A DNA stretch of 64,000 nt from Kaistella carnis (GTDB lineage: Bacteria > Bacteroidota > Bacteroidia > Flavobacteriales > Weeksellaceae): positions 558,001 to 622,000 of the forward strand of contig NZ_CP034159.1 of the NCBI RefSeq assembly GCF_003860585.1, read 5' to 3'. The notes beneath the pieces were generated by a model. That model was not told the origin of the DNA, did not search any database, and saw only the letters and a list, made by a program, of their open reading frames with translations. The translations under genes were made by a program, and so were the position numbers. Position 1 is the stretch's first letter; each line of letters begins with the position of its first letter. Shown here one piece after another: positions 2,323 through 64,000 of this stretch.

Positions 2323-2367
2323 CGTTTTCTCATCTGCCCCGAAATGCTTATTTTCGCAAAAGCTTTT

Positions 2368-2877: not shown

Positions 2878-2891
2878 AAATATTGCTATTT

Positions 2892-4016: not shown

Positions 4017-4050
4017 ACCGTAATCTTCTAGATTATATTATTGCTAAAAA

Positions 4051-4086
4051 AGAGCACTTCAATTTCTATTGAAGTGCTCTTTTATT
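4051..4086 (+). terminator. Terminator of the immunophilin pair
   Basis: Perfect 13-bp arms AGAGCACTTCAAT / ATTGAAGTGCTCT with a 4-base loop are followed by TTTTATTTTT. Confidence 0.85.
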
Positions 4087-4477
4087 TTTCAAAGAAATAA
4101 ATAGTAAAATGATAATTAAAAGTAACCGATTGATTATGTTTTTATGAAACTAATCAAAATTCATTATATTTAATTTATTAAAAGGCTGTTTTAACTACGA
4201 CTTATTAAACTTCAATTTGGTATATTTGTTAGACAAAACAAACTAAGCTGAATAGATTTTTATTTTCTACACTTTACATGTAATAAAATTTTTAGCATTT
4301 ACTGGAAATTTATTGCGAGCTCTATAATTTTCTTGTCTATAAAAAGTAGGCAATAGAATTAAAAGACGTGGGGGTAAAAACTAGTAACGAGACCAAACAA
4401 ATGATGATTTAATTTTCAATGCCGATCGGGCAAGCTTAGTTAATGAAAATAAAAATTGTTAATCCGACGGTAAAGTA
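4087..4477. other. Intergenic stretch without a recognisable gene
   Basis: About 390 AT-rich bases between two converging terminators. I see no convincing open frame, repeat or RNA gene. The only short frame (ATG at 4444) encodes 11 residues and is not credible on its own. Confidence 0.6.
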
Positions 4478-4504
4478 AAAAGGTATATCAGCGATATACC
4501 TTTT
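4478..4504 (-). terminator. Terminator of the ion channel gene
   Basis: Arms AAAAGGTATAT / ATATACCTTTT with a 5-base loop. Read on the minus strand the 3' arm runs into T residues directly after the channel stop codon. Confidence 0.75.
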
Positions 4505-4509
4505 TTATT

Positions 4510-5337
4510 TTAAATTACTTTTTCACCGCAAATTTTGCAAAATCTAGCATCATCATCTACGTCATTATTTCCGCAACGATTACAAACCTTGCCTATTTCC
4601 TGACGCTTGTTACGCATCTCTGCCGTCACAATTCCGGTAGGAACTGCAATAATGGAATAACCTGCAAGCATTAAGAGCACAGATAGGAATTTACCCAACG
4701 GCGTTCCCGGCGAAACATCACCATATCCAACGGTTGTTACTGTGACAACAGCCCAATAAACACTTTGGGGAATGCTTTCAAAACCTTCACGATGGCCTTC
4801 CACCATAAACATCATCGAGCCAATAATGACAGAAAAAATAATTAGGAATAAAAGAAAGATATAAATTTTTCGGGAACTGTTTTTCATGGCACGAACAATA
4901 AAATAACCATCGTTCATAAAATCCATCAGATTTAAAATCCGGAAAATTCTTAACATTCTAAGCATTCTTAGAATTAAGAAATATTTTGTAATCGGGAAGA
5001 ACAAACTCAGATAAAAGGGAAGAATCGCAAGAAAGTCGATGATTCCGAAGAAACTGAAAATATATGCTTTCTTATTTTTAATGGTAAGGATCCTCAGCGC
5101 GTATTCTATGGTAAAAAAAGCAGTAATGATAATTTCTAAAATGACGAAAGCATTATGAAATTTAGCGTCGAAAATTTGTACACTTTCCATCATAACGATG
5201 AAGGTGCTTACTAAAATGAGAACCAACAGTAGAAGGTCAAACAGTCGTCCCATTTTAGTGTCAGACTTGAAGATAATACGGAAAAGCTGTCGTTTCCATT
5301 TCGTCCTCTCAGGCAAAAAATTATGTTCTCTTTCCAT
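4510..5337 (-). CDS. Voltage-gated-type potassium channel with C-terminal zinc ribbon
   Basis: 275 residues from the ATG at 5337, which follows a minus-strand -7 box at 5382-5389. The longer frame starting at 5409 begins upstream of that promoter and is rejected. There are six membrane segments. S4 has an Arg every third residue (LRMLRMLRIFRIL, ~123-135), and the pore has the K+ selectivity filter TTVGYGD (~201-207). After S6 come about 15 linker residues and a CXXC...CXXC ribbon (Cys252, 255, 267, 270) ending at residue 275. The ribbon is unusual for this channel family and could be a sensing or assembly domain (inference). The gene is divergent from the Nif3-family gene. Confidence 0.88.
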   Translation of the reverse strand: MEREHNFLPERTKWKRQLFRIIFKSDTKMGRLFDLLLLVLILVSTFIVMMESVQIFDAKFHNAFVILEIIITAFFTIEYALRILTIKNKKAYIFSFFGIIDFLAILPFYLSLFFPITKYFLILRMLRMLRIFRILNLMDFMNDGYFIVRAMKNSSRKIYIFLLFLIIFSVIIGSMMFMVEGHREGFESIPQSVYWAVVTVTTVGYGDVSPGTPLGKFLSVLLMLAGYSIIAVPTGIVTAEMRNKRQEIGKVCNRCGNNDVDDDARFCKICGEKVI

Positions 5338-5381
5338 TGAACTTTGCAGTATAATTAAATAATTAATTCTTAAATTCGTTA

Positions 5382-5389
5382 CAAACATA
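5382..5389 (-). promoter_or_regulatory. Ion channel promoter -7 box
   Basis: TATGTTTG on the minus strand, 45 bases upstream of the chosen start. On the plus strand TAAATTCG (5371-5378) is a possible -7 box for the divergent Nif3-family gene. Confidence 0.45.
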
Positions 5390-5394
5390 ACAAA

Positions 5395-6492
5395 ATGACA
5401 GTAAACCAAGTCATCTCCGACTTAAAAAATGTAATTCCTTTGGCTCAAGCAGAAAATTATGATAATGTAGGATTGCTTTGTGGCGATCCCGAAAGAGCGG
5501 TCACAGGAATTTTGGTTTGTCATGATGCCTTGCATAATGTTGTAGAAGAGGCGATTAGGAAAGACCTGAATTTAATTGTGACTTTTCATCCCATCATCTT
5601 CTCAGGATTAAAATCCATTACGGGTAAAAATTATGTAGAAAAGGTAATCATGAAAGCTATTGAAAATAAAATTGCAATCTACGCGATTCATACGGCTTTT
5701 GATAATGACTATTTTGGAGTGAATTATCGGATCTGCGAAGTACTCGGGTTGAAAAATCAAAAAATTCTGATGCCAAAAGTTCAGGATTTACGAAAACTTG
5801 AAGTCTATGTTCCGCAAGATCATGCTGAAGAAGTTAAAAATGCTTTATTTACAGCCGGCGCCGGAAACATAGGATTTTATGATGAATGTAGTTTTTCCAT
5901 CGAAGGCACGGGAACTTTTCGACCTTTGGAAGGATCAAATCCATTTTCTGGAAGTGAAAATATCAGAGAAAACGCGAGCGAAAAATTGATTTCAGTCATC
6001 TTTGAAAGTTATAAGGAGCATAAGATTTTAGATGCCGTAAAAAATTCACATCCTTATGAGGAAGTAGCCTATCAAATAATAAAATTAGAAAACGAAAACC
6101 AATATCTTGGGTTGGGTAGATTTGGTGAATTTGAAGTGGAAATGGAGGAGGCTGAATTTTTAAATTTCGTGAAAGAAAAATTTAATTTGAAGGTGATCAA
6201 ACACTCAGATTTTACGGGCAAAAAAATTAAGAGAGTAGGCGTTTTGGGCGGAAGTGGAGCAAGCGGAATTTCGGCGGCGATTTCTAAACAATGTGATGCG
6301 TATTTAACCGGGGATTTAAAATATCATGATTATTTTCAAAGTGAAGGTAAAATGTTGATTGGCGACATCGGACATTTTGAATCTGAACAATTTGTTACCC
6401 AGCATTTAGTTGAAATATTATCACAAAAATTCACTACCTTTGCCATCTCAAAATCTACTGAGAAAACCAATCCTGTTAATTATTTTTTATAA
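5395..6492 (+). CDS. Nif3-like dinuclear metal-centre protein
   Basis: 365 residues, the long form of the Nif3/YqfO family with a CutA/PII-like insertion at about residues 125-230. Metal-ligand segments are visible: TFHPIIFSG (~62-70), HTAFDND (~99-105), and near the C-terminus GDIGHFESEQ. Family members form hexameric toroids with a dinuclear metal site. Their reaction is not settled, although some databases call them GTP cyclohydrolase 1 type 2. The next gene starts three bases after the stop, and this Nif3 plus coiled-coil zinc-ribbon pair is widespread in Bacteroidota, so a shared function is likely. Confidence 0.88.
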   Translation: MTVNQVISDLKNVIPLAQAENYDNVGLLCGDPERAVTGILVCHDALHNVVEEAIRKDLNLIVTFHPIIFSGLKSITGKNYVEKVIMKAIENKIAIYAIHTAFDNDYFGVNYRICEVLGLKNQKILMPKVQDLRKLEVYVPQDHAEEVKNALFTAGAGNIGFYDECSFSIEGTGTFRPLEGSNPFSGSENIRENASEKLISVIFESYKEHKILDAVKNSHPYEEVAYQIIKLENENQYLGLGRFGEFEVEMEEAEFLNFVKEKFNLKVIKHSDFTGKKIKRVGVLGGSGASGISAAISKQCDAYLTGDLKYHDYFQSEGKMLIGDIGHFESEQFVTQHLVEILSQKFTTFAISKSTEKTNPVNYFL

Positions 6493-6495
6493 AAT

Positions 6496-7275
6496 ATGGC
6501 TAAGAAAAACGTAGAAATCTCCGTCGAAGACAAACTAAGAGCATTATACGACCTACAAATCATTGATTCTAGGTTAGATGAAATCCGCAGTACAAGAGGT
6601 GAATTGCCAATTGAGGTGGAAGATTTAGAAATTGAGATCGAAGGTCTTGAAAAGAGAGCTGAAAAGTTTCAAAGTGAAATTAAGGCGCAGAATGATGAAA
6701 TCAATACTAAAAATGAAATCATCAATCATGCGAAATCTTTGATTGAAAAATACAAAACTCAGCAAGATAACGTACGAAATAACAAAGAATTCGAATCTTT
6801 GGAAAAAGAAATCGAATATCAAGATCTTGAAATTCAGCTTTCTGAAAAAAGAATTAACGAATTTAGTGCAAAAATCGCTCACAAAAACGAAACACTGGAG
6901 GAGCTTAACAATAAGATTGCAGAATTAAAAAATCACCTTAAATTTAAAAAAGAGGAACTTGAAAATTTAATTTCTGAAACGCAAAAAGAGGAAGATTTCT
7001 TACTCGAAAAATCAAATGAATTTGCGAAGAAAATCGACGAAAGATTATTGGCGTCTTACCAAAGAATCCGTACCAATTCACCAACTGGTTTGGCTGTTGT
7101 AGGTTTAGAAAGAGGAGCTCCAAAAGGATCTTTCTTTACTTTGCCTCCACAGAAACAAATGGAGATTGCGCAGCGTAAAAAGATTATCATTGATGAACAT
7201 TCAGGAAAAATCTTGGTTGATGACGATATGGTAAACGAAGAAAATGAGAAAATGAAAGACATTATTAAATTTTAA
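6496..7275 (+). CDS. Coiled-coil protein of the C4 zinc-ribbon family, zinc ligands lost
   Basis: 259 residues. Residues ~10-180 are a long antiparallel-type coiled coil rich in Glu and Lys. The C-terminal ~60 residues align with the zf-RING_7 zinc ribbon that normally follows this coiled coil (VVGLERGAPKGSFFTLPPQ, RKKIIIDEHSGKILVDD). The four cysteines expected there are replaced by Pro209, Ser212, Asp233 and Ser236, and the protein contains no cysteine at all. The fold signature (LPPQ, basic strand, GKILVD) remains. It probably acts with the Nif3-family protein encoded immediately upstream. Function unknown. Confidence 0.85.
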   Translation: MAKKNVEISVEDKLRALYDLQIIDSRLDEIRSTRGELPIEVEDLEIEIEGLEKRAEKFQSEIKAQNDEINTKNEIINHAKSLIEKYKTQQDNVRNNKEFESLEKEIEYQDLEIQLSEKRINEFSAKIAHKNETLEELNNKIAELKNHLKFKKEELENLISETQKEEDFLLEKSNEFAKKIDERLLASYQRIRTNSPTGLAVVGLERGAPKGSFFTLPPQKQMEIAQRKKIIIDEHSGKILVDDDMVNEENEKMKDIIKF

Positions 7276-7290
7276 TAAAGTTTTCAACAT

Positions 7291-7328
7291 AAAAAAACCG
7301 GTTTGATATTTTTCAAACCGGTTTTTTT
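7291..7328. terminator. Bidirectional terminator
   Basis: Arms AAACCGGTTTGA / TCAAACCGGTTT flanked by A7 and T7 runs, between converging genes. Confidence 0.85.
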
Positions 7329-7339
7329 AGGTGTTAATT

Positions 7340-8539
7340 TTAAGTCATTTTTACTGCAGTTAAAAAGTCTTTTATTCTTTTCATGGCTTCCCGCAACTCA
7401 TGTTCTGAAGCAGCGTATGAAAATCGAATACAATTTGGATTACCAAAAGAAACGCCACCAACGGTTCCTACCTGTGCATGCTCCAACAGAAACATTGAGA
7501 AATCATCTGCATTATTAATTTTAGTTCCATTTAAAGTTTTCCCTTTGTAAAAAGAAATATCAGGAAAGAAGTAAAAAGCAGCTTTCGGATAATTGATATT
7601 AAATCCTGGAATATCCTTCATCAAGTCATAAACAATATCCCTTCTTTTTTTAAATTCTTCCACCATAAATCGATATTCACTTGGGTCAGTCTGCAGAGCA
7701 GTAACCGAGGCTTTTTGCGCCATCGAATTTGCACCACTTGTCATTTGCCCCTGAATCTTCTCACACGCTTTTGCCAGCCATGTTGGACACGCAGAATAAC
7801 CAATGCGCCACCCAGTCATTGCAAAAGCTTTCGACATTCCATTAATCACAGCAGTTTGTTCATACACTTGAGGAAACTCTGCAATGGACGTATGTTGACC
7901 CTCATAATTAATAAATTCATAGATCTCATCGGAGATAATGGTGATCTGAGGATATTTAGCAATTACATTCGCAATCGCTTCTAACTCTGCCCGCGTATAA
8001 TAACTTCCGGAAGGATTGCAGGGGGAACTATAAAGCAAGGCCTTTGTTTTAGGCGTAATTGCTTTTTCTAATTGCGCTGCGGTCATTTTAAACTCGGTGT
8101 CGATGGAAGTTTCAATAAATACGGAAGTTCCATCCATCATTTTTACCATTTCGTCATAACTCACCCAATACGGTGCGGGTAAAATCACCTCGTCGCCTTT
8201 ATTAATAATGGAGGCCAGAACGTTAATGATTGCCTGTTTCGCGCCATTAGAAACACAAATTTGAGACGCATTATATTCAAGATTATTATCTCTTTTTAAT
8301 TTACCACATATTGCTTCCCTTAAATCCAAAAATCCTGGAACAGGAGAGTAGTGACTGAAATTTTTATTGATGGCCTCAAATGCTGCTTCTTTGATATTGT
8401 TGGGCACGTCGAAATCGGGTTCGCCTAGAGTTAAACTGATAACATCGATGCCGGCAGCTTTCATTTCACGCACTTTATTACTCATCACAAAAGTCTGCGA
8501 AAAACTCAGTCTGTTTAACCGATCAGAATATTTTTCCAT
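7340..8539 (-). CDS. Class I PLP aminotransferase (aspartate aminotransferase type)
   Basis: 399 residues from the ATG at 8539. The longer frame to 8593 runs through the -7 box TATCTTTG, so it is not used. Fold type I aminotransferase signatures: SNGAKQAIINVL, APYWVSYDEMVKM, SSPCNPSGSYY, SDEIYEFINY, and the PLP-lysine motif INGMSKAFAMTGWRIGY. This group (AspB-like, subgroup Ib) usually transfers the amino group from aspartate to 2-oxoglutarate, sometimes also accepting prephenate or aromatic substrates. The exact substrate is not decided by sequence. It is divergent from rsmG. Confidence 0.88.
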   Translation of the reverse strand: MEKYSDRLNRLSFSQTFVMSNKVREMKAAGIDVISLTLGEPDFDVPNNIKEAAFEAINKNFSHYSPVPGFLDLREAICGKLKRDNNLEYNASQICVSNGAKQAIINVLASIINKGDEVILPAPYWVSYDEMVKMMDGTSVFIETSIDTEFKMTAAQLEKAITPKTKALLYSSPCNPSGSYYTRAELEAIANVIAKYPQITIISDEIYEFINYEGQHTSIAEFPQVYEQTAVINGMSKAFAMTGWRIGYSACPTWLAKACEKIQGQMTSGANSMAQKASVTALQTDPSEYRFMVEEFKKRRDIVYDLMKDIPGFNINYPKAAFYFFPDISFYKGKTLNGTKINNADDFSMFLLEHAQVGTVGGVSFGNPNCIRFSYAASEHELREAMKRIKDFLTAVKMT

Positions 8540-8615
8540 AATTATTTTTAAGTGAATCAAAGATAATTTTTTACTTTGAACCTGCAAAAACAAATAGGAA
8601 GTGAAATCGTTTCTT

Positions 8616-8623
8616 TACTTTTG
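8616..8623 (+). promoter_or_regulatory. rsmG promoter -7 box
   Basis: TACTTTTG lies nine bases before the ATG at 8632. It overlaps the GTG at 8623, which therefore cannot easily be the start. The mRNA leader must be only a few bases long. Confidence 0.55.
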
Positions 8624-8631
8624 TGAAAAAT

Positions 8632-9276
8632 ATGTCTAAAATGTCTGTTGAATTAATCGAAAAATATTTTCCAAACCTTTCTGACCATCAGAAAAAACAA
8701 TTTGCTGATCTAAATGATTTATATAAAGAGTGGAACGAAAAAATCAATGTGATTTCCCGCAAAGATATGGAGTCCCTATATGAGAAGCACATTCTTCATT
8801 CATTAGGAATCGCAAAGATCATGGAGTTTGCACCAGGAACAAAAGTACTGGATATTGGAACGGGCGGCGGTTTTCCCGGTATTCCTTTAGCAATCTTATT
8901 TCCAGAAGTTCATTTTACATTAGTTGATTCGATCGGTAAAAAAATTTCGGTGGTTAAAGAGGTTTCGGAAGGAATTGGTTTGAAAAATGTAAAGGCCATA
9001 CATGCACGTGCAGAAGACATTAAAGATCAGTTTCACTTTGTCGTAAGTCGTGCTGTGACTCAAATGCCGGTATTTCTTCGTTGGTTACGCGGTAAATTTG
9101 CCAAAGATCAGTTTAATCCAAAACACAATGGCGTTCTCTATTTAAAAGGTGGTGATTTAGCTGAGGAACTTTATGGATTAAAAGCCGAGTTATTTCCCCT
9201 AAAAAATTATTTCGAAAGTGAATTTTTTGAGACCAAAAAAGTAGTATATTTATCTAAAGGAAATTTTAATTCCTAA
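8632..9276 (+). CDS. rsmG: 16S rRNA (guanine527-N7)-methyltransferase
   Basis: 214 residues from the ATG at 8632 (another ATG follows at 8641). It methylates N7 of G527 in the 530 loop of 16S rRNA using SAM. The N-terminal family motif LNDLYKEWNEKINVISRKD is followed by the SAM-binding loop VLDIGTGGGFPGIPLAIL and then by ISVVKEVSEGIGLKNVKAIHARAED. The Arg-containing strand FVVSRAV is present. Loss of this enzyme is known in other bacteria to give low-level streptomycin resistance; here the frame is intact. Confidence 0.92.
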   Translation: MSKMSVELIEKYFPNLSDHQKKQFADLNDLYKEWNEKINVISRKDMESLYEKHILHSLGIAKIMEFAPGTKVLDIGTGGGFPGIPLAILFPEVHFTLVDSIGKKISVVKEVSEGIGLKNVKAIHARAEDIKDQFHFVVSRAVTQMPVFLRWLRGKFAKDQFNPKHNGVLYLKGGDLAEELYGLKAELFPLKNYFESEFFETKKVVYLSKGNFNS

Positions 9277-9328
9277 TTCTTTGTACTAAAGGAATAATTA
9301 ATGTCGTTTTAATAAAAAATAGAGCATT

Positions 9329-9745
9329 ATGAAGAATATTTTAAAATTTTGTCTTTCATTATTAATGACGATGATGATTTTCAGTTGTAACGACCGTGAA
9401 GAAGGTGACCTGATTATTGGTACTGACCGCATAAAAATTGACAGCGTTAAAATTGCGCAAGATTCTATGGACGTGCTAACCACGCAGACTATAAAAACTT
9501 ATTCCAATTACAGTGGCAATTGCGAAGGATTTTACGGCTATGATTATGTTCATAAAAATGACTTGACAAGGGAGGTTACTTCCTATAATTTTAAAACCGA
9601 TGCGGCATGTACCGAAATTGTAACCCGCGCTTCACTCATCAATTTTCGTCCGCAACAAGCTGGTGATTATATTTTTAAATTTTGGAATGGTCTAAATTCC
9701 TCCGGAGAAGATATTTGGATCGAAAAAACAATTAAGGTTCAATAA
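9329..9745 (+). CDS. Small lipoprotein, function unknown
   Basis: 138 residues. MKNILKFCLSLLMTMMIFSC is a lipoprotein signal peptide with the acylated cysteine at about residue 20, followed by an acidic stretch. The mature part of about 118 residues has two further cysteines and aromatic-rich beta-like segments (FYGYDYV, DYIFKFWNGL). I do not recognise a family. It lies 52 bases after rsmG but ends in its own terminator. Probably anchored in the outer membrane. Confidence 0.7.
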   Translation: MKNILKFCLSLLMTMMIFSCNDREEGDLIIGTDRIKIDSVKIAQDSMDVLTTQTIKTYSNYSGNCEGFYGYDYVHKNDLTREVTSYNFKTDAACTEIVTRASLINFRPQQAGDYIFKFWNGLNSSGEDIWIEKTIKVQ

Positions 9746-9775
9746 GCGAACTTCTATATTTTTAAGGGTTTTCAT

Positions 9776-9812
9776 AAAGCATCGAAAAATCGAATTTTTT
9801 TTGATGCTTTTT
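9776..9812 (+). terminator. Terminator after the small lipoprotein gene
   Basis: Outer arms AAGCATC / GATGCTT with an A/T-paired interior, followed by TTTTTC. Confidence 0.7.
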
Positions 9813-9935
9813 CATTTAAAATTTCCTATTTTTCATTTTTAAATATTTTAATGATAATCAAGTGTATGAGCACTTGTTTACCTAATTATTTTCTTTAATA
9901 AAAATCATTAAATTTAAAAAGCAAAATATCGATCG

Positions 9936-12659
9936 ATGAAATTTTTAAATAAAATAGTAACTGAACTTCTTGCACAAAATTCAGATTTAGGAACATTTAA
10001 TATTGTACTTCCGGGAAAAAGGCCCGTCGTTTTTATTAAAAGAATATTGCAGGAGAAAAACTATTCGGGAATGTTGCCCAATTTTTTTACAGTTGAAGAT
10101 TTAATTAAAGATATCTCAGATAAACAGCCGGTTCAGGGAATTGCATTGTGGCTTTTTGCTTTTGAAGTTTATAGGGAAATTCAGCCTTCCGAAGATTTTT
10201 CTAATTTCTTAAAATGGTTCCCAACCTTACTAAAAGATTGGGATGATATCTTGAAATTTTCGGATTCTGACAAAGCTGTTTTAGAGTATATGTTTGATGA
10301 AGAACGCATAAAAAACTGGTCAGAGAATTTAGGCGATGACGAAAAACCTTTAAAGAAATTTCTTAATTTCTGGCAGAAAATGAATTTATTTTTGCCGATC
10401 CTGAAGCAAAAATTAACTGAAAATAATTGGGCTACTTCAGGAATGATTCATGAAGCTGCAAAAAATAAAATTGAAGAATACGCCAAAAACACAACTGGTA
10501 AATTTGTTTTTTGTGGATTTAATGCCTTTACTCCTGTAGAGGAAAAACTGGTAAGAAATCTAATGCAGTGGGATAAAGCGCAATGCTTCTTCCAGGCAGA
10601 CGAATACTACATCAATGATGAAAGACAGGAAGCCGGAAAGTTTTTACGCAGTATAAAAACCTGGAAAGAATTTAATGAAAGCCGAAATTTTAAGTGGATT
10701 GAAGATGATTTTTCCCAACCCAAAAAAATTAAAGTTTACGAAGTTTCCGGAAATATAACCCAGGCAAAAGTTTTACCGGAAATCTTTGACGAAATAAGCG
10801 AAGAAAATCTTTCAAAAACCGCGGTGGTTTTATTAGATGAAAATCTGCTTCCAACTTGCCTGGATTCGATGAGTAGAGTAGAGCATCTTAATATTACCAT
10901 GGGTTTCCCTTTAAAAAATTTGGGTTTCAGTAATGCGATGAAACAGCTTTTCTATCTGCAGAAACAATTAGAGAAGAAAGATTCTTCCTATTATTATAAT
11001 GATGTGCTTTCCGTTTTAGAAGAACTTCCTAATGAGGAAAGTGATCAGAAAATCATTCGGGATTTTAAAGCTAAAATTGAAGAAAGAAATATCGTTTATA
11101 TTTCAAAAAAGCAGTTCAAAGAATTTTTGTGGGAACTTTCTTATTTTAAATTATTTGAAAAGCCCACATCTATTAAGGAATTTATTGATTTGATGATTTC
11201 CTTCTGTTATCAGCTAAAATTCCGGGATCTGGATGATATTTTATATGAAAACATTTCCCATTTCGAGAAGAGTTTTAAAATAATCAAAAATCAGCTTACA
11301 CCTTACACCTTCGAAGTAAAAATGGAAACGCTGGAGGTTTTAATCAATCAACTGGTGAGTTCTGAAACCATTGATTTTCAGGGAGAACCACTTCAGGGTT
11401 TACAAGTGATGGGACTTCTGGAAACTCGATTACTCAACTTTGAGAATATTATTTTACTCTCTGCAAATGAGGGAAAACTTCCGCTCGGAAATTCTCAGAA
11501 TACGTATCTCCCTTTTGATGTACGCCAGCATTTTCACCTTCATACCTTTTTAGAAAATGACAGTATTTATGCCTACCATTTTTACCGTTTAATTCAAGAT
11601 GCGGAAAATGTTCATTTGCTTTTTAACGCTTTAAGTTCCGGTGTGAATACTGGGGAAAAAAGTCGTTTTATCACCCAAATTGAAATTGAGGATCAACATC
11701 ACGAAATCGAACATGTTATTATTGAAAATTCGTCGGAACCCATTAATAAACAGTTAATTCAGATTGAAAAAACGCCTGCAGTTCTGCAAAAACTGGAAGA
11801 CTGGAAAAAAAGAGTTTCTCCATCTCATCTGACTTCATTTATCTACAATCCGATCGATTTCTATTTGACTAAAATTTTAGGAACGAGGGAAACGAGCGAA
11901 ATGGAGGAGGAGCTTTCCCAAAGGAGCTATGGTAATCTTGTTCATTACGCACTTCAAATTATATATGAAAAACATCTTGGTAAAAAATTATCCTGTAATG
12001 ATTTAGAGTTTTCAGATAAAGAATTGATTGAAGTGTTAAATCAGGCAATTGTGAAGCTAAATCATCAAACGGATTTCTATGAAAAAGGGATGAATTACAT
12101 TCATAAATCGATTGCAGAAAGGGTAGTACGTACTATTTTGGAAGTAGATAAACAATTAATTGCGGATGGAAACACATTAGAAATTTTAAGTGTTGAAGGA
12201 AATTTTGAAAACATTGATTATTATTTCAATGAAGACAAAACCGATAAAGTTTCTTTCTATGGATTTATTGATCGAATTGACCGACTGAATGGAAAACTCA
12301 GAATAATTGATTACAAAACCGCAAAGACAAAAAACCTTTCAATTAAAGAAGCTAAAAAAGAAGAGGAAGAAGAAAAACTTGAACAGTTATTTTTTAAAGA
12401 TGATTATAAACAGGCGATGCAACTTTGTGTGTATGCCTATGCCGTTTTAAATGATACAAAATATCCGGATAATTTTGTGCAGTGCGGAATTTGGAGTTTT
12501 GCGGAAGCGAATAAAGGCGTACAGAATCTACAGATTTTTGGAGAGCAAGAAATTTCTAGCCCTTTGCTTAACGATCCTATGAAGTGGATTAAAAATGTTA
12601 TTGAAGAAATTCTAAATCCAGCCAACGATTTTGTGGAAGAAGTGAAACAATCCTGGTAA
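9936..12659 (+). CDS. AddB-like PD-(D/E)XK nuclease with inactive helicase-like body
   Basis: 907 residues. The N-terminal two thirds resemble the helicase-like scaffold of AddB/RexB: the opening FNIVLPGKRPVVFIKRILQE and a later NIILLSANEGKLPL. The C-terminal third carries a RecB-type nuclease with GNLVHYALQIIYEK, then GFIDRIDRLNGKLRIIDYKTAK, which supplies the catalytic Asp, Asp and Lys. AddB works with the UvrD-like helicase-nuclease AddA in processing double-strand breaks; addA is not adjacent here. I see no cysteine cluster flanking the nuclease, so the iron-sulfur pin of classical AddB seems absent. Confidence 0.82.
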   Translation: MKFLNKIVTELLAQNSDLGTFNIVLPGKRPVVFIKRILQEKNYSGMLPNFFTVEDLIKDISDKQPVQGIALWLFAFEVYREIQPSEDFSNFLKWFPTLLKDWDDILKFSDSDKAVLEYMFDEERIKNWSENLGDDEKPLKKFLNFWQKMNLFLPILKQKLTENNWATSGMIHEAAKNKIEEYAKNTTGKFVFCGFNAFTPVEEKLVRNLMQWDKAQCFFQADEYYINDERQEAGKFLRSIKTWKEFNESRNFKWIEDDFSQPKKIKVYEVSGNITQAKVLPEIFDEISEENLSKTAVVLLDENLLPTCLDSMSRVEHLNITMGFPLKNLGFSNAMKQLFYLQKQLEKKDSSYYYNDVLSVLEELPNEESDQKIIRDFKAKIEERNIVYISKKQFKEFLWELSYFKLFEKPTSIKEFIDLMISFCYQLKFRDLDDILYENISHFEKSFKIIKNQLTPYTFEVKMETLEVLINQLVSSETIDFQGEPLQGLQVMGLLETRLLNFENIILLSANEGKLPLGNSQNTYLPFDVRQHFHLHTFLENDSIYAYHFYRLIQDAENVHLLFNALSSGVNTGEKSRFITQIEIEDQHHEIEHVIIENSSEPINKQLIQIEKTPAVLQKLEDWKKRVSPSHLTSFIYNPIDFYLTKILGTRETSEMEEELSQRSYGNLVHYALQIIYEKHLGKKLSCNDLEFSDKELIEVLNQAIVKLNHQTDFYEKGMNYIHKSIAERVVRTILEVDKQLIADGNTLEILSVEGNFENIDYYFNEDKTDKVSFYGFIDRIDRLNGKLRIIDYKTAKTKNLSIKEAKKEEEEEKLEQLFFKDDYKQAMQLCVYAYAVLNDTKYPDNFVQCGIWSFAEANKGVQNLQIFGEQEISSPLLNDPMKWIKNVIEEILNPANDFVEEVKQSW

Positions 12660-56507: not shown

Positions 56508-57140
56508 TTAGTAAAGCTCAATTTTAATAATACTTCTACAGGAACGGCGGGTTACGAAAACTTCACCACTCAAATTGCTAATGTAAATAAAGGAACTGCT
56601 TACACGATTACCATTACTCCAAAATGGACTTCCACTTCCTATAATGAAGGTTACGCCGTTTTCATTGATTATAATCAAGATGGAGATTTCTCTGATGCGG
56701 GCGAAACTGTTTTCACAAAAGCTGCTTCTAAAACAAATCCGGTTTCTGGATCAATCACAATTCCGGCATCTGCACTTTCAGGAAATACCAGAATGAGAGT
56801 TTCCATGAAATACAATGGAATACCAACAGCTTGCGAAACTTTCTCTTATGGACAGGTCGAAGATTACACCTTAAACATTAAAGCTGCAGGAACAGTGACA
56901 GCGTTAGTAAACACGAGTGCAGACACAGTTAATGTTTATCCAAATCCAGTGAAAGATATTTTGAATATTAATGCAAAAGGTGACTATAATTATCAATTGA
57001 TCTCCATCGATGGAAAAATTGTTAAAGATGGCAACCAATCTGAAAACGCTGTCAATGTTCAAAGTTTACCAACCGGAATTTATATAATGAAGATTACTCA
57101 AGACGGAAAAACTTCCAGCCATAAAGTAATCAAAAAATAA
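56508..57140 (+). pseudogene. 5'-truncated GEVED-domain protein with T9SS sorting signal
   Basis: An open frame after a TGA at 56505 begins LVKLNFNNTSTGTAGYENF and has no start codon before the ATG at 56793. It contains a partial GEVED domain (DYNQDGDFSDAGE, TACETFSYGQVEDYTLNI). It ends in a type A C-terminal secretion signal for the type IX system (TVNVYPNPVKDILNI, SLPTGIYIMKITQDGKTSSHKVIKK). Intact relatives are large secreted proteins with a signal peptide. Here only the last ~210 codons remain, and a neighbouring frame reads MISKAQF at the break, suggesting an additional frameshift. A 115-residue product from 56793 would lack a signal peptide. Confidence 0.75.
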
Positions 57141-57287: not shown

Positions 57288-58715
57288 ATGACAATTAATC
57301 TTACCAATAGTCCATCAATCGAGACAAATCAAAAATTCACTTTTTTAACCGAAGAACAATGGCAAAAAGAAAAAGCAAACTTCAGCCATAATTTCGACGG
57401 TTTATTTTCCGCAAAAAAAGACGAAACTTTTATTCTTCTTCAAGATGGTTTAGTTCACTTTTTAATAGGTTTAGGAGCGGATCCAAAGAATTTTGAAATT
57501 CGGGAAGCTGCGGAAAAATTCAGTTATGACTTTCGAAAAAAAATTAAAGTAGAAAGTACTTTTATCAAGACCGAAAACTTTAATACTGATCAAATTGAAA
57601 ACTTAGTAAAAGGTTTATATCTTGGAACTTACGAATATCCCTTTAAAGAAGAGCATTCTTTCTTTAATGATAATTTTTCTTTAAAATTGATTTCATTTTC
57701 AGACGAAGATCTAAAGGAATTAGAAATTAAAACTCAAGCAATTTGCGAAGGACAATTTGCCTGCATGGAATGGCTGAACAAACCTCAAAATTTTAAAAGA
57801 GTTCCGCATATTTCTGGATTTTTAAATGAAATTTCCACAAAATATAATTTCAAACAAACTGTTTTCGACCGCAAAAAATCTGAGGAAGTAGGACTTGGAG
57901 CATTTCTTTCTGTAAATCAGGGAAGTTCGCAGGAAGCCGCTTTTACCATTTTAGAATATCATTCTGAAAATCAAAATGCAAAAACCGTTGGTTTGGTTGG
58001 GAAATGTGTTCTTTTTGATACCGGCGGAATTTCAATTAAAGGTTCAGAAAACCTTCATTATATGAAATCCGACATGGGCGGTGCAACAGCGGTTATCGGA
58101 ACTTTAATTGCCGCGGCAGAAATAAAACTTCCTGTAAACATTATTGCTATTTTACCGATTACCGATAACGCAGTTTCAAATACGGCGTATATTCCAAGTG
58201 ATGTTGTAACAGCTTATAATGGGAAAACAATTGAAGTTTTAAATACGGATGCGGAAGGAAGAATGACTTTGGCAGACGGACTCTCCTACCTTTCTAAAAA
58301 CTACAAAACAGAAGTATTGATTGATCTGGCAACCTTAACCGGCAGCTCCGTAAGAACTTTTGGAGATACTTGTGGTGCCTATTTCTCAAACAGTGATGAG
58401 CTGAAGAAATCTTTGGAAAAATCTGCTGATAAAACCAATCAAAGGTTGTGGAATTTGCCGCTTTGGGACATTTGGGAAAAAGATTTCAAGTCTGATGTTG
58501 CAGATTTTAAAAACATATCGTCTAAGCCGGTCGGTGGTTGTATCATCGCCGGAAAATTTCTGGAGCAGTTTATAGAAGGGCATCCTAAATGGGCGCATCT
58601 TGATATCGCAGGAGTTGCCTTTGGAGGTGTTCGCTATATGAAAGGTTATGGCGCAACTGGCTACGGAGTTCAATTATTGATGGATTATCTGGAAACTTTC
58701 TCCGAAGAAAATTAG
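57288..58715 (+). CDS. M17 leucyl aminopeptidase family protein
   Basis: 475 residues. Di-zinc aminopeptidase that releases N-terminal residues from peptides. Signature NTDAEGRMTLADGLSYL near residue 319. Metal/catalytic segments: VLFDTGGISIKGSENLHYMKSDMGGA (Lys and Asp). The C-terminal AHLDIAGVAF is typical. The N-terminal domain (~1-170) is divergent, as usual in this family. Monocistronic by appearance. Confidence 0.92.
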   Translation: MTINLTNSPSIETNQKFTFLTEEQWQKEKANFSHNFDGLFSAKKDETFILLQDGLVHFLIGLGADPKNFEIREAAEKFSYDFRKKIKVESTFIKTENFNTDQIENLVKGLYLGTYEYPFKEEHSFFNDNFSLKLISFSDEDLKELEIKTQAICEGQFACMEWLNKPQNFKRVPHISGFLNEISTKYNFKQTVFDRKKSEEVGLGAFLSVNQGSSQEAAFTILEYHSENQNAKTVGLVGKCVLFDTGGISIKGSENLHYMKSDMGGATAVIGTLIAAAEIKLPVNIIAILPITDNAVSNTAYIPSDVVTAYNGKTIEVLNTDAEGRMTLADGLSYLSKNYKTEVLIDLATLTGSSVRTFGDTCGAYFSNSDELKKSLEKSADKTNQRLWNLPLWDIWEKDFKSDVADFKNISSKPVGGCIIAGKFLEQFIEGHPKWAHLDIAGVAFGGVRYMKGYGATGYGVQLLMDYLETFSEEN

Positions 58716-58848: not shown

Positions 58849-60060
58849 ATGAAGGAGAAAACGATTGTGTGTATTTCCTGCTATTACAAGGGGTATGATT
58901 TTATGGATGAGATGAAAAAGCTCGGCAATAAAATCATCCTCATTACTTCGGAGAAAATTAAAGATAAAAACTGGCCTTGGCATGCAATTGACGAAGTGTA
59001 TTACATGTCAGAAAAAGAGCCTTCTGTCTGGGATTTAGACCATCTGGTTCAAGGTTTTTCTCATCTGCTGAAAAGGTGTAAAATTGATGTGGTCATTGCT
59101 CTGGATGATTATGATGTTGAAAAAGCCGCTTTAATTCGGGAGACTTTCCGTATTCCCGGAATGGGACAAACTACTCATCGATATTTTCGGGATAAGTTGG
59201 CCATGCGACAAATGGCAAAGGATTCACAAATTGAAGTTCCCGAATACTCCTCAATTTTTAATGATGAAACCGTAGAGGAATTTGCAGATAAAGTTTCGCC
59301 ACCCTGGGTTTTGAAACCACGTTCTGAAGCTTCTGCTACTGGAATTATTAAAATAACATCCAAGGAAGAGCTTTTTAAAGCCATTGATAATTTAGTTGAT
59401 AAAAGACATCATTTTCTTTTAGAAAGTTTTAAACCTGGCGATGTTTTCCATGTGGACAGTTTGGTTTACAACAGTGAAATTGTTTTTGTTTCGGCCTCAC
59501 AATATCTTTCGCCGCCTATGGAAGTTTCGCATGAAGGTGGTGTTTTTCGGTCTAAAACATTAGGCTTTTCCACAGCTGAATTTAAGGCATTGGAACAAGC
59601 AAATCATAAAGTGATGAAAAGTTTCGGCTTAAAAAACGGCGCAACCCACACTGAGTTTATACGCGGTAAAGAAGATGGAAAATGGTATTTTCTGGAAACG
59701 TCTTCACGCGTTGGAGGTGCTCATATCCCTGATTTGGTAGAAGCTTCTACGGGCACCAATTTATGGCGGGAATGGGCAAGAATCGAAAATGCCTGGCTCA
59801 AAAATACTGATTATAAAGTCGCCAAACCTACAGAATTTTTTGCAGGTTTAATTATTTGTCTGTCTAAAAATAAAACGCCGGATTACGCCGAATTTAAACG
59901 GGAAGAAGTCTATAAAATCTTGCCAATGGATTACCACATTGGTCTTGTTTACAAGTCTACGGATGAGGAAGTCATACAACAGCTGTTAGATGAAACCGCA
60001 AACAAAATTAGGGAGCATTATATCAGTATCATGCCGCCCAAGACCAAACCGACTTCTTAA
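58849..60060 (+). CDS. ATP-grasp carboxylate-amine ligase (carbamoyl-phosphate-synthase-like)
   Basis: 403 residues. N-terminal Rossmann-like pre-ATP-grasp domain (~1-115; VCISCYYKGYDFMDEMKKLG, VIALDDYDVEKAALIRE). ATP-grasp domain follows: DKLAMRQMAKDSQIEVPEY, PPWVLKPRSEASATGIIKI (ATP-binding Lys and loop), HFLLESFKPGDVFHVDSLVY, and the metal-binding WYFLETSSRVGGAHIPDLVEASTG. This type joins a carboxylate, activated as acyl phosphate, to an amine. It is the first gene of a run of at least five same-strand genes spaced 38-54 bases. The substrate is unknown. Confidence 0.9.
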   Translation: MKEKTIVCISCYYKGYDFMDEMKKLGNKIILITSEKIKDKNWPWHAIDEVYYMSEKEPSVWDLDHLVQGFSHLLKRCKIDVVIALDDYDVEKAALIRETFRIPGMGQTTHRYFRDKLAMRQMAKDSQIEVPEYSSIFNDETVEEFADKVSPPWVLKPRSEASATGIIKITSKEELFKAIDNLVDKRHHFLLESFKPGDVFHVDSLVYNSEIVFVSASQYLSPPMEVSHEGGVFRSKTLGFSTAEFKALEQANHKVMKSFGLKNGATHTEFIRGKEDGKWYFLETSSRVGGAHIPDLVEASTGTNLWREWARIENAWLKNTDYKVAKPTEFFAGLIICLSKNKTPDYAEFKREEVYKILPMDYHIGLVYKSTDEEVIQQLLDETANKIREHYISIMPPKTKPTS

Positions 60061-60104
60061 AACAAGTTCCATTAAAAACAGAACGAAAACTAATTTACCT
60101 TATT

Positions 60105-60818
60105 ATGCCAAGAATTGAGCACACCGATTATTATTCAAATATATTAGGAACTTCTTTAAAAGTAGAAGTAACTGGACATTACGGACATCCGATCATCATG
60201 TTCCCGACGTCTCAGGGTCAATATACACAGAATCATGATTTTAAATTAAATGAAAGCATTAATCATTTTATTGATGGGGGAAAAGTAAAACTTTATAATG
60301 TGGCGACCATTGATGAATATAGTTTTTATGATAAAAATAGATCTCCTTCAGAAAGGATTAGGAACTACGAAATGTATGTTCAGTTTTTGATTCAGGAATA
60401 TGTACCTTATATTCAAAAGTTGCATGGTGTTCACCGTGTTGCAGTAGCCGGAGCAAGTTTCGGTGGTTATCACGCGTCAAATTTTGCTTTTAGATTTCCT
60501 GATGTGGTGTCGCATCTTTTTTGTCTGTCGGGCGCTTTTTCGATCCGTAATTTCATGGAGGGTTTTAACAGCGAAACCGTTTATTTTAATTGTCCACGCG
60601 AGTTTGTTGTGAATGATGAAGCTTGGAAATATCAACACATGCATATCGTTTTGAGCACTTCTGATCAAGATATCTGTTTGGAGCAGACCAAAGAAATGGC
60701 TGGTATTTTATCCTCGAAAGGAATCAAATATTGGTATGATGAACAAAAATGGATTAATCACGACTGGCCTCTCTGGCGAATGGTTTTCCCTAAATTCATC
60801 GGCCGGTTTTTCTCTTAA
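60105..60818 (+). CDS. Alpha/beta-hydrolase esterase in the ATP-grasp cluster
   Basis: 237 residues, no signal peptide, so cytoplasmic. Esterase D/PHB-esterase-like: nucleophile elbow VAGASFGGYHASNFAF (Ser ~116), acid STSDQDICLEQ, and His in WINHDWPLWRMVFP. All three catalytic residues are present. The opening EHTDYYSNILGTSLKVEVTGHYGHPIIMFPTSQG is typical of this group. Position between two ATP-grasp genes suggests it trims or transfers an ester-linked intermediate or releases the product (inference). Confidence 0.88.
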   Translation: MPRIEHTDYYSNILGTSLKVEVTGHYGHPIIMFPTSQGQYTQNHDFKLNESINHFIDGGKVKLYNVATIDEYSFYDKNRSPSERIRNYEMYVQFLIQEYVPYIQKLHGVHRVAVAGASFGGYHASNFAFRFPDVVSHLFCLSGAFSIRNFMEGFNSETVYFNCPREFVVNDEAWKYQHMHIVLSTSDQDICLEQTKEMAGILSSKGIKYWYDEQKWINHDWPLWRMVFPKFIGRFFS

Positions 60819-60872
60819 TTTTAGAACTAATAAAAAAGTTTTAACCCACTTTAATTTAAAAAAATAAATATT

Positions 60873-61826
60873 ATGGCAAAGAAAGTAGGAATTTTATTCG
60901 GCATGGAAGATACCTTTCCCTGGGCATTTATCGATAAAGTAAATGAAATGGGAAAAGGAGAAATTGTTGCAGAAGCAGTAATGATCGACAAGTTGGAGCA
61001 AGGTGTAGATTACGGTTATGCGGTGATCATTGACCGAATTTCTCAGGACGTTCCCTTTTACAGAGCATATTTAAAAAACGCTGCTTTGAATGGCACGTAT
61101 GTAATTAATAATCCCTTTTGGTGGAGTGCAGATGAGAAGTTCTTCAATAATGCTTTAATGACAAAATTAGGAATTCCACTTCCGAAAACTGTTTTGTTGC
61201 CTTCAAATGACCGCCCGACCAACACCACAGAAACTTCTTTCAGAAACCTCAAATTTCCTCATGACTGGGATTATATTTTTAATTACATCGGATTTCCTGC
61301 ATATATGAAACCGCACGACGGTGGCGGCTGGAAAAATGTTTATCGTGTAGAAAATGCCGAAGATATGTGGAATAAATTAGGAGAAACAGGACAGTTGGTG
61401 ATGATGCTTCAGGAAGAAATATTTTTCGAGGATTACTACAGAGTTTACTGTTTGGGTAAAAAATATGTTCACATTATGCCATATGAACCAAGAAATGCTC
61501 CTCACTTACGATATGAAACTACCCATAAAACTGAAGGTAAAGACCGGGAGAAACTGCTGAAAATTATTCATGATTACACCATTAAAATGAATGAAGCTTT
61601 GGGTTACGACTTCAACACCGTAGAATTTGCGGTAAAAGATGGGATTCCGTACGCCATTGATTTTTGTAATCCGGCGCCTGATGCCGATCGCAATGCAGTG
61701 GGAGAAGAAAATTTCGCTTGGATCGTAGAACATGCTGCGAAACTTGCCATTGAAAAAGCAAAAGAATATGTTCCCGGGAAGCCGAATATTTCTTGGGGAA
61801 AATTTGTTAAAGATTCCTTTAAGTAG
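60873..61826 (+). CDS. Second ATP-grasp ligase (RimK-like architecture)
   Basis: 317 residues, not a close copy of the first ATP-grasp protein. The N-terminal domain (~1-90) opens with KVGILFGMEDTFPWAFIDKV. ATP-grasp core segments: NNALMTKLGIPLPKTVLLPS, IGFPAYMKPHDGGGWKNVYRV (ATP Lys), LVMMLQEEIFFEDYYRVYCLGKK, and the metal-site strand FNTVEFAVKDGIPYAIDFCNPAPDAD with Glu and Asn. Two ATP-grasp enzymes of different type in one operon suggest two successive ligations. Confidence 0.9.
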   Translation: MAKKVGILFGMEDTFPWAFIDKVNEMGKGEIVAEAVMIDKLEQGVDYGYAVIIDRISQDVPFYRAYLKNAALNGTYVINNPFWWSADEKFFNNALMTKLGIPLPKTVLLPSNDRPTNTTETSFRNLKFPHDWDYIFNYIGFPAYMKPHDGGGWKNVYRVENAEDMWNKLGETGQLVMMLQEEIFFEDYYRVYCLGKKYVHIMPYEPRNAPHLRYETTHKTEGKDREKLLKIIHDYTIKMNEALGYDFNTVEFAVKDGIPYAIDFCNPAPDADRNAVGEENFAWIVEHAAKLAIEKAKEYVPGKPNISWGKFVKDSFK

Positions 61827-61880
61827 GTCAGTTATTTCTAGAAAGAAATTCGAAAAATCATAATTTAAAAACACAAAGTA

Positions 61881-62987
61881 ATGCATCAGTTTACCATAGG
61901 AGTTGAAGAAGAATATCAAATTATCGATGCGGAAACCCGCGATTTGGTGTCGCACGTTTCAAAAATCATTGAAGGCGGAAAAGCCACATTGCATGAAAAC
62001 TTAAAACATGAAATGCATGAATCTGTGATTGAGATGGAAACCGGGATCTGTCAAAATATCGCCGGCGTTAGAGCGGAATTAGAGGATCTCCGAAAGCGAC
62101 TGATCAAGGTGGCGCACGAAAATGATTTGCGTGTTTCCGGCGGGGGAACTCATCCTTTTTCGAACTGGAAAGACAATCACATCACGAAAGATGTTCGCTA
62201 TGATAAAATTATAAGTGATTTGGGTGACGCCGCGCGGTCAAATTTAATTTTTGGGCTCCATGTTCATATTGGGATTCCGAATCGCGAAGAAGGCGTACGA
62301 ATTCAAAATGTGATGCGATATTTTCTGCCCCATATTTATGCACTTTCCACAAATTCTCCTTTTTGGGTGGGTCGAAATACAGGTTTTAAATCCTACCGTC
62401 AAGAAGTTTTTGCAAAATTTCCGCGTACCGGAATTCCAAGTTATTTTAGTTGTGCTGCAGAATTTGATGCCTACATCGATCTAATGATCAGGACCGGAAC
62501 CATTGATAATGCAAAGAAAATCTGGTGGGATCTGCGTGTTCATCCCTTCTACCCTACAATCGAGTTTCGAATTTGCGATATGCCTTTAAGAATAGACGAA
62601 ACCGTTTGTCTGGCTGCGATTATGCAAAGTCTTGTTGCAAAAATTTATAAACTCCATGAGCAGAATATGAGTTTTAGAAGCTACCGAAGATTGCTGTTAA
62701 ATGAAAATAAGTGGCGTGCTTCTAAAGACGGAATTCACGCTCACCTGATTGATTTTGGAAAAGAAACTAGCGTTCCTTATGTTGATTTGTTGAAAGAGCT
62801 ATTGGAATTTATTGATGATGTGGTTGATGATCTCGATTGTCGCAGTGAGTTAGAATATGCCTGGGAAATTATGAAAAACGGAACCGGTGCCGACCGACAA
62901 CTCCGAATATTAGAAGAAACAGGTGACCTAAAAGCGGTGGTTGATTATATGATTTCTGAGACCGAATATGGTATCACCTATGAGTAA
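61881..62987 (+). CDS. GCS2-type carboxylate-amine ligase (YbdK/COG2170)
   Basis: 368 residues. Glutamate-cysteine ligase family 2 fold of the glutamine-synthetase superfamily. The opening FTIGVEEEYQIIDAETRDLVSH provides the first metal glutamates. Also present: HEMHESVIEMETGICQNIAGVRAEL, LRVSGGGTHPFSNWKD, IFGLHVHIGIPNREEGVRIQNVM, and FYPTIEFRICDMPLRIDETVCLAAI. Relatives have weak glutamate-cysteine ligase activity in vitro, but the true substrates are mostly unknown. Here it is the third amide-forming enzyme in the cluster. Confidence 0.92.
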   Translation: MHQFTIGVEEEYQIIDAETRDLVSHVSKIIEGGKATLHENLKHEMHESVIEMETGICQNIAGVRAELEDLRKRLIKVAHENDLRVSGGGTHPFSNWKDNHITKDVRYDKIISDLGDAARSNLIFGLHVHIGIPNREEGVRIQNVMRYFLPHIYALSTNSPFWVGRNTGFKSYRQEVFAKFPRTGIPSYFSCAAEFDAYIDLMIRTGTIDNAKKIWWDLRVHPFYPTIEFRICDMPLRIDETVCLAAIMQSLVAKIYKLHEQNMSFRSYRRLLLNENKWRASKDGIHAHLIDFGKETSVPYVDLLKELLEFIDDVVDDLDCRSELEYAWEIMKNGTGADRQLRILEETGDLKAVVDYMISETEYGITYE

Positions 62988-62999
62988 TTGAGATTTCCG

Positions 63000-63007
63000 T
63001 AAATTTG
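63000..63007 (+). promoter_or_regulatory. Possible internal promoter in the ligase cluster
   Basis: TAAATTTG matches the -7 consensus and lies 18 bases before the ATG at 63026. I see no clear -33 TTG at the right distance. Confidence 0.35.
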
Positions 63008-63025
63008 TCCTCAGAAATTAAACGT

Positions 63026-63856
63026 ATGAAAAAGATTAAGATCGCACTGCTGGATATGAATAACAATCATGTAAATCAGGGTATGCGGAATATAAAAGAA
63101 ATAGCACACCATTTTCAGCAAAATTCTGAGGAAGACGTAACTATTTCTGTCTTTGACGTACGTTATAAAGAAGAAATTCCCAACATTGCCGATTTTGATA
63201 TTTTTATTTCATCCGGTGGCCCCGGAAATCCTCACAAAGAAGGTTATGCGTGGGAAAGTAAGTACGCTGATTTTTTGGATCAAATTTGGGAACATAACAA
63301 GAATGCGGAAAATAAAAAATTCGCTTTTCTGATCTGTCACTCCTTCCAGCTTGCAAGTATTCATTGGCGGTTGGGCAATATCTGTAAAAGAAAATCATAT
63401 TCCTTTGGTGTCATGCCTATTCATAAAACCCGACAAGGCAAAGAAGATTTTCTGCTGAAGAATTTGCCGGAACCTTTCTATGCAGTAGATTCCAGAGCGT
63501 ATCAGTTTATAGAACCCAATTACGATAAATTGAAAGAAATGGGAATGTCTGTGGTGGCTTTGGAAAAGGTAAGACCTCACGTTCGACTGGAAAGAGCGGT
63601 GATGGCGATACGGTTTTCAGAGGAGATTTTCGGAACACAGTTTCACCCGGAAGCAAACCCTTATGGAATGCTGGAGAATTTAAAAATTGAAAGTAACCGC
63701 GATGCCATGATCGAAAATTATGGTGTTGAAAAATACCTGGAAACCGTCGACCGGATGGATGATCCAGATAAAATAGTGTTAACGCAGACTCAAATTTTAC
63801 CTCGCTTTTTACAACATGCTTCGGAACAGATTGTTAAGAATTTAATGATGGTTTAG
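63026..63856 (+). CDS. Class I glutamine amidotransferase (GMP-synthase-type GATase)
   Basis: 276 residues from the ATG at 63026 (a TTG at 63005 overlaps a possible -7 box). The class I triad is visible: nucleophile FLICHSFQLASIHW (Cys), and the pair in FGTQFHPEANPYGM (His and Glu). The oxyanion motif is IFISSGGPGNPHKEG. Such domains release ammonia from glutamine for a partner synthetase. A C-terminal extension of ~50 residues goes beyond the core. No separate synthetase of the guaA or pyrG type lies nearby, so the ligases of this cluster are the likely partners. Confidence 0.9.
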   Translation: MKKIKIALLDMNNNHVNQGMRNIKEIAHHFQQNSEEDVTISVFDVRYKEEIPNIADFDIFISSGGPGNPHKEGYAWESKYADFLDQIWEHNKNAENKKFAFLICHSFQLASIHWRLGNICKRKSYSFGVMPIHKTRQGKEDFLLKNLPEPFYAVDSRAYQFIEPNYDKLKEMGMSVVALEKVRPHVRLERAVMAIRFSEEIFGTQFHPEANPYGMLENLKIESNRDAMIENYGVEKYLETVDRMDDPDKIVLTQTQILPRFLQHASEQIVKNLMMV

Positions 63857-63921
63857 AACCCTCTTTTAAATGGTTTCAGTGTACTGTTTTTGCAGAAGTG
63901 TTTTTAACTTTATCAATAATG

Positions 63922-63939
63922 CTGGTTCATGTTAACCAG
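63922..63939. other. Small inverted repeat before the last gene
   Basis: CTGGTT - 6 bases - AACCAG, with a T run from 63945. It is either a weak terminator attenuating the cluster or an operator for the next gene. Confidence 0.35.
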
Positions 63940-63966
63940 TGACTATTTTTCAAAAAAAAAATTAAG

Positions 63967-64000
63967 ATGATTCAAAAATACAGAAAACAGTTTAACGCTG
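63967..64000 (+). CDS. Start of a further gene, cut by window edge
   Basis: ATG at 63967 followed by 11 codons reading MIQKYRKQFNA up to the edge, with a purine-rich stretch (AAAAAAATTAAG) just before it. It lies 110 bases after the amidotransferase in the same direction. The product cannot be named. Confidence 0.5.
   Translation, partial: MIQKYRKQFNA

Follow-up and report, generated by a model that had tools for sequence, protein, structure and literature searches.

Known amide ligase systems and the Kaistella carnis locus

Gene neighborhoods that combine amidoligases with peptidases were reportedly found in large number by Iyer et al. 2009 (Mol Biosyst 5:1636, doi 10.1039/b917682a), who are said to have predicted peptide synthesis for them. 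The locus analyzed here comprises six genes that begin at position 58849 of a 64,000-base stretch of the Kaistella carnis genome and run past its right-hand end. This stretch, hereafter the window, covers bases 558001-622000 of one contig of 3.23 Mb. Like the neighborhoods reported in that study, the locus links non-ribosomal amide ligases of several folds to peptidases. Parts of the arrangement are also shared with two other systems. In glutathione and glutathionylspermidine biosynthesis, a GCS2-family ligase is likewise combined with a circularly permuted ATP-grasp enzyme of the glutathione/glutathionylspermidine synthetase fold; the Kaistella locus differs in that its GCS2 protein is of the PRK13515 type and falls below the glutamate-cysteine ligase cut-offs, its permuted ATP-grasp protein falls below the PF03738 cut-off, and the cluster has two further ligases. 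The logic of the Puu pathway and of plant GGP1 is one of gamma-glutamylation followed by removal through a hydrolase with the fold of class I glutamine amidotransferases (GATases), and at the level of gene families the locus matches it in having a ligase of GCS/GS type next to a protein of GATase fold. Each enzyme of the cluster resembles a known kind, and a literature search, mostly at less than full-text depth, returned no description of this gene combination.

We propose that the genes probably encode a single chromosomal pathway, cytosolic and independent of the ribosome, whose product would be a short peptide or a conjugate of one, assembled in successive ligations via acyl phosphates and trimmed by the hydrolases. 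The more general conclusion that the cluster genes form one pathway is well supported, by their recurring order and by their co-occurrence in genomes where they are not neighbors. The genes are as follows, the right-hand flank being supplied by the locus record L002:

58849..60060, plus strand: gene 1, ATP-grasp protein resembling L-amino acid ligases, 403 amino acids (PF13535 above cut-off)
60105..60818, plus strand: gene 2, PF00756 alpha/beta esterase, 237 amino acids (PF00756 E 3.9e-8)
60873..61826, plus strand: gene 3, RimK/LysX-type ATP-grasp protein, "RimK-like" below, 317 amino acids (RimK-type fold; no Pfam family)
61881..62987, plus strand: gene 4, GCS2/COG2170-type carboxylate-amine ligase, 368 amino acids (PRK13515 above cut-off)
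63005..63856, plus strand: gene 5, class I GATase-fold protein (PF00117, 38.3 bits against a cut-off of 22.8), with the ATG at 63026 more likely to be its start than 63005
63967..65151 (L002:7967-9151), plus strand: gene 6, permuted ATP-grasp protein, 394 amino acids (predicted fold)

A first-pass annotation, made from the letters of the window and a list of its open reading frames, had described genes 1 to 5 as three amide ligases, an esterase and a GATase. All five reading frames were confirmed at their coordinates on the plus strand, with intergenic gaps of 44, 54, 54 and 38 bases, and the family calls hold under Pfam, NCBIfam and fold comparison. The three ligases are present, but a fourth lies beyond the window end: the rightward extension that the annotation had suggested revealed gene 6, which starts 110 bases after gene 5 on the same strand and has only its first bases inside the window (63967..64000).

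Gene order is conserved across phyla

Conservation was analyzed in two sets of loci. For the first, one genome per species was scanned with gene 4 and the best 80 of 590 loci were taken, a selection that leans to close relatives; together with the window's own locus these give 81 loci, in which cluster genes were counted by tblastn. The second set consists of 56 loci chosen for the RimK-like gene or its partners, and may overlap the genomes of the first (proteins of L131 and L132 are 99-100% matches to those of first-set loci), so that locus counts are not independent. The tally excludes L001, L083 and 30 short loci (L084-L113).

In most of the 81 and 56 loci the esterase is followed by RimK-like, GCS2 and gene 6, in that order, with GATase or an M29 aminopeptidase, where present, between the last two. 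A check of gene order across Bacteroidota had been suggested at the outset; the order recurs there and in other phyla as well, the record titles of first-set loci naming Bacteroidota, Ignavibacteriota, Verrucomicrobiota and Acidobacteriota. Among the matches listed, a Kaistella locus comes closest (gene 4: 91%). Because 78 of the 80 loci retrieved by the GCS2 query alone (the best 80 of 590) contain a RimK-like gene, the linkage is more than chance; the gene is missing in L055 and L064 only, where GCS2 starts less than 260 bases from the start of the locus. The first set (n=81) has RimK-like in 79 loci, gene 6 in 75, the esterase in 69, GATase in 56, a second PF00756 esterase in 52, gene 1 and an M17 leucyl aminopeptidase in 47 each, and M29 in 19. 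Corresponding numbers for the second set (n=56) are RimK-like 53, GCS2 38, gene 6 34, GATase 29, esterase 26, second esterase 21, M29 4, gene 1 3 and M17 1.

Gene 1 and M17 are found nearby in the first set only in Weeksellaceae-type loci (L002-L048, L062), and the 47 of 81 loci with M17 near the unit are nearly all Weeksellaceae by record title. In L148, from another family, the second esterase, M17 and gene 1 stand side by side and adjoin the remaining cluster genes, and gene 1 lies nearby in L115 and L155. No carrier, membrane or target gene recurs among 40 loci inspected, the commonest outside neighbor, of more than 1200 residues, being present in 6. Over 48 loci, the pairwise distances of three of the proteins are correlated (r 0.59, 0.78 and 0.79), which lends no more than mild support. 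In L022, a Chryseobacterium record, a number of the cluster genes are split into short reading frames, perhaps through sequencing error.

Cluster genes co-occur even when unlinked

Co-occurrence was assessed in 296 genomes of the GTDB phylum Bacteroidota, which takes in Ignavibacteria, with per-gene cut-offs ranging from E 1e-20 to 1e-60. RimK-like is carried by 108 of these (excluding weak matches, at E 8.4e-7 and above), GCS2 by 103, gene 6 by 92, GATase by 70, gene 1 by 66 and M29 by 6. RimK-like is found together with gene 6 in 89 genomes (Fisher p 3e-52, with shared ancestry ignored in this and the other co-occurrence p-values) and with GCS2 in 91. The three ligases are combined in 84 genomes, with all pairs within 10 kb in 46 and no pair so close in 23. 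Every genome with gene 1 also carries RimK-like (66/66, p 1.9e-37), only 11 of the 66 having the two within 10 kb of each other. RimK-like is likewise carried by 69 of the 70 genomes with GATase, the lone exception carrying GCS2 and gene 6, and GATase is found in none of the six genomes with M29.

The initial inference of a single pathway is strengthened by this co-occurrence of unlinked genes, as it is by the recurring order. Separate housekeeping orthologues elsewhere in the genome had been named as a sign to the contrary. The single-pathway inference withstands this test, GCS2 being present in one copy. For the GATase family there are seven matches, the cluster's being among the two weakest, so that other GATases exist. 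In a genus coded g3, two of the 15 listed genomes have all five of RimK-like, GCS2, gene 6, GATase and gene 1, one has three and 12 have none; G281, from the window's own genus, has none of the five. Nine genomes carry GCS2 only (E 1e-89 to 1e-118), and these proteins perhaps represent another clade.

Exchangeable positions within the unit

GCS2 and gene 6 are both present in 105 loci, of which 73 have GATase, 21 M29, 11 neither and none the two together. Whichever of the two is present sits between GCS2 and gene 6 (GATase in 73/73, M29 in 21/21), and none of the 137 loci contains both. Seven of the nine second-set genomes in which this slot is empty carry GATase elsewhere (loci L131, L136, L138, L140, L141, L142 and L156; genomes G148, G184, G224, G124, G035, G070 and G116); in G001 and G006 it is missing elsewhere too. 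A further exchange is seen in eight loci (L114-L121) that combine RimK-like and GATase with a CP_ATPgrasp-type protein and contain neither GCS2 nor gene 6. The esterase is present in six of the eight, the second esterase in four and gene 1 in one; across the eight genomes as a whole, six have gene 1 somewhere, three an unlinked GCS2 and none gene 6. PF14403 scored above cut-off in two of the five CP_ATPgrasp-type proteins scanned. A different permuted ATP-grasp can thus occupy the place held by GCS2 and gene 6 in other loci.

Four ligases of different families

Gene 1 had been annotated as CPSase-like. It is an ATP-grasp protein (ATP-grasp_4), but its match to CPSase_L_D2 is weak (21.3 bits, cut-off 19.8), and its nearest solved relatives in PDB are the L-amino acid ligases RizA (4wd3, E 3.5e-15) and BL00235 (3vot, E 3.1e-9). 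It differs from these in failing the cut-offs of every named equivalog model matched (BacD and DdaF; 18.3 against 850 and 25 against 840). Gene 3 was assigned by the fold test to the RimK/LysX/ArgX type, and does not reach the cut-off of TIGR00768 (27.8 against 143.4). Gene 4 scores above PRK13515 (525.3 bits, cut-off 371) and TIGR02050 (301.5, cut-off 176.4), and below the narrower YbdK equivalog NF010040 (262.8 against 425) and all glutamate-cysteine ligase models matched (best NF010043, 358.7 against 409; TIGR02048, 60.6 against 249); its PDB relatives are 1tt4 and YbdK (1r8g).

Gene 6 reaches no Pfam or NCBIfam cut-off, including that of the glutathionylspermidine synthase family PF03738 (12.3 bits against a gathering score of 29.3). 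Over its whole chain, it is predicted to adopt the circularly permuted ATP-grasp fold that glutathione and glutathionylspermidine synthetases share. The view that none of the genes closely resembles glutathione enzymes must therefore be qualified with respect to gene 6. The same fold is present in Cp1B of E-64 biosynthesis, which yields a pseudodipeptide with release of ADP, and in YgiC/YjfC, which are named peptidylpolyamine synthetases (PMC12568646); they differ from gene 6 in their partner genes, and identity in the structure matches is 11-17%.

Hydrolases of the unit and its surroundings

In gene 2, Ser118, Asp189 and His219 are invariant in 13 of 13 aligned proteins and probably form the catalytic triad; no signal peptide was seen by eye. 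The second PF00756 esterase counted above is present in this genome as well, at 75% identity, but unlinked (C1:94722-95852). The usual nucleophile elbow of class I GATases is GxCxGxQ. The statement that the catalytic motif of gene 5 is intact stands for the residues themselves, since none of the 13 aligned proteins departs from Cys111, His214 and Glu216, but not for the elbow, which reads ICHSFQ and is without the usual glycines. Gene 5 does not reach the cut-offs of NCBIfam models PRK07567, PRK09065 and PRK08250. Its profile had no match in PDB at E 0.001, and a search with the single sequence returned 3l7n alone (E 0.011).

The M17 gene lies upstream of gene 1, from whose start its end is separated by 133 bases:

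57288..58715, plus strand: M17 leucyl aminopeptidase, 475 amino acids (PF00883 E 8.3e-101)

It may be a housekeeping peptidase rather than a member of the pathway.

A proposed pathway and its alternatives

The unit combines four ATP-dependent ligases with soluble hydrolases and has no recurring carrier, membrane or target gene, and therefore suggests that a small peptide or conjugate is made step by step in the cytoplasm. Gene 1 would couple an amino acid either to a second one or to an acid; gene 3 would add a residue; gene 4 would form an amide on a glutamate-like carboxylate; and gene 6 would add the last amino acid or an amine, every ligation proceeding through an acyl phosphate made with ATP. 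Gene 5, or M29 in its slot, the esterases and perhaps M17 would act on the product in the manner of a gamma-glutamyl cycle, by trimming, editing or recycling it. Ammonia supply by the GATase and a releasing step by the esterase, as the first-pass annotation had them, are putative roles. We infer the order of these steps, their substrates, the product and the role of gene 5 as a hydrolase rather than an ammonia donor from family, fold and gene neighborhood. The pairing of GCS2 with a partner of glutathione-synthetase fold suggests that the product is a gamma-glutamyl peptide. M29 in the GATase slot speaks for a hydrolytic step, but does not show it. Because an aminopeptidase occupies that slot elsewhere, amide hydrolysis by gene 5 is easier to understand than ammonia supply; PuuD and plant GGP1 are GATase-fold proteins that hydrolyze an amide. 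A more specific version, which we put forward tentatively and hold to be clearly less probable than the pathway itself, is that Bacteroidota, Ignavibacteriota, Verrucomicrobiota and Acidobacteriota share an as yet unnamed gamma-glutamyl-type peptide cycle, in which the four ligases would make a small metabolite of general physiology and a GATase-fold peptidase, interchangeable with M29 and not an amidotransferase, would turn it over.

Several observations weigh against this pathway. The ligase set is incomplete in many genomes: gene 1 is missing in 42 of the 108 with RimK-like and gene 6 in 19, 12 of which also lack GCS2. Neither GATase nor M29 is present in 33 of the 108, and the step they would perform must therefore be dispensable or done elsewhere. 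The alternation of these two genes amounts to only two changes on the GCS2 tree (built from 48 of 84 eligible loci, with near-copies dropped) and so partly reflects shared ancestry, which the co-occurrence p-values likewise leave out of account. The eight loci with a CP_ATPgrasp-type gene in the place of GCS2 and gene 6 imply that the chemistry is not fixed. The M17 gene is this genome's only such peptidase, and adjoins the unit in just one of the 56 second-set loci. To these is added the distribution of GATase with respect to cyanophycin, considered below.

The principal alternative makes gene 5 a genuine glutaminase subunit, one that passes ammonia to one of the ligases, the product then being a carboxamide (a peptide amide). 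PF00117 is above cut-off, the Cys, His and Glu residues are conserved, GATase is tied to RimK-like in 69 of 70 genomes, and it is present in all eight variant loci without GCS2 and gene 6. We nevertheless regard this as the less likely role, since M29, which fills the slot in 21 loci, cannot supply ammonia to the same end, and since the elbow of gene 5 is without the usual glycines. Known members of the RimK/LysX family act on protein substrates, so that the fold of gene 3 would also accommodate a tagging system in which amino acids are attached to a target protein by the ligases and stripped by the peptidases. RimK itself acts on a ribosomal protein (PMC6920838). Protein tagging is nonetheless improbable, given that no small carrier or target gene recurs around the unit and that L-amino acid ligases and GspS-type enzymes work on small molecules, as do Cp1B and YgiC/YjfC (PMC12568646).

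The combination of a GCS2-family ligase, a glutathione-synthetase fold, a PF00756 esterase and an aminopeptidase could also be read as a thiol pathway of a new, glutathione-like kind, in which GCS2 would take the part of GshA and gene 6 that of GshB, and the esterase would be an S-acyl-thiol hydrolase; the PF00756 family includes S-formylglutathione hydrolase. We give this no better prospects than protein tagging, in view of a GCS2 protein that falls below every glutamate-cysteine ligase cut-off and of genes 1 and 3, for which such a pathway has no place; no sign of a thiol came up, and none was looked for. A role in cyanophycin metabolism was suggested by Chryseobacterium-type loci of the first set, in which cyanophycin synthetase-like genes lie downstream in 28 (e.g. 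L007:12659-17101), and cyanophycinase-like and isoaspartyl-peptidase-like genes in 22 each. As a control, matches to the cyanophycin synthetase domain were taken from a draw of 213 genomes and base rates from the 296. Of the 23 genomes with cyanophycin synthetase, 11 have RimK-like against a base rate of 36% (p 0.18), and the synthetase shows no co-occurrence with RimK-like, GCS2, gene 6 or gene 1. GATase, alone of the five genes, is enriched (11/23 against 24%, p 0.0097), and it is this result that fits the cyanophycin reading and sits poorly with our own. A general link to cyanophycin is rejected on the co-occurrence data and, with the synthetase of this genome 71 kb upstream of gene 1, participation of the cluster in cyanophycin metabolism is very improbable.

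Genomic setting

Directly after gene 6, on the opposite strand, lie an MFS gene (Pfam) and three genes that by eye are HlyD-, TolC- and TetR-like (L002:9161-13859, from position 65161 in window numbering). An exporter was considered as a cluster member and rejected, because the MFS gene and its three neighbors recur as a set in L003 only. On the other side, a 115-residue frame at 56793-57140 of the window resembles, as judged by eye, the last part of a secreted protein that carries a sorting-domain tail; the remainder of the gene is not obvious. An Rfam scan of L002 from 1000 to 10000 gave no match. Scans for promoter-like sites (16, where shuffled sequence gives a mean of 19.4) and terminator-like sites (13, against 5.3 in shuffled sequence, including a stem between genes 5 and 6) were not used as evidence. 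Mobility of the unit was also considered and rejected: the RimK-like protein had no match in a plasmid collection (E 1e-30) or a phage collection (E 1e-20), and gene 6 had none in the plasmid collection (E 1e-20).

Significance

Roughly one in three of the phylum's sampled genomes (108/296) has the RimK-like gene of this set, and a compound produced so widely is more likely to be physiological than an antibiotic. Co-occurrence provides a short list of enzymes and brings the product within reach of direct experiment, and the cluster offers a test case for a class I GATase-fold protein working as a peptidase.

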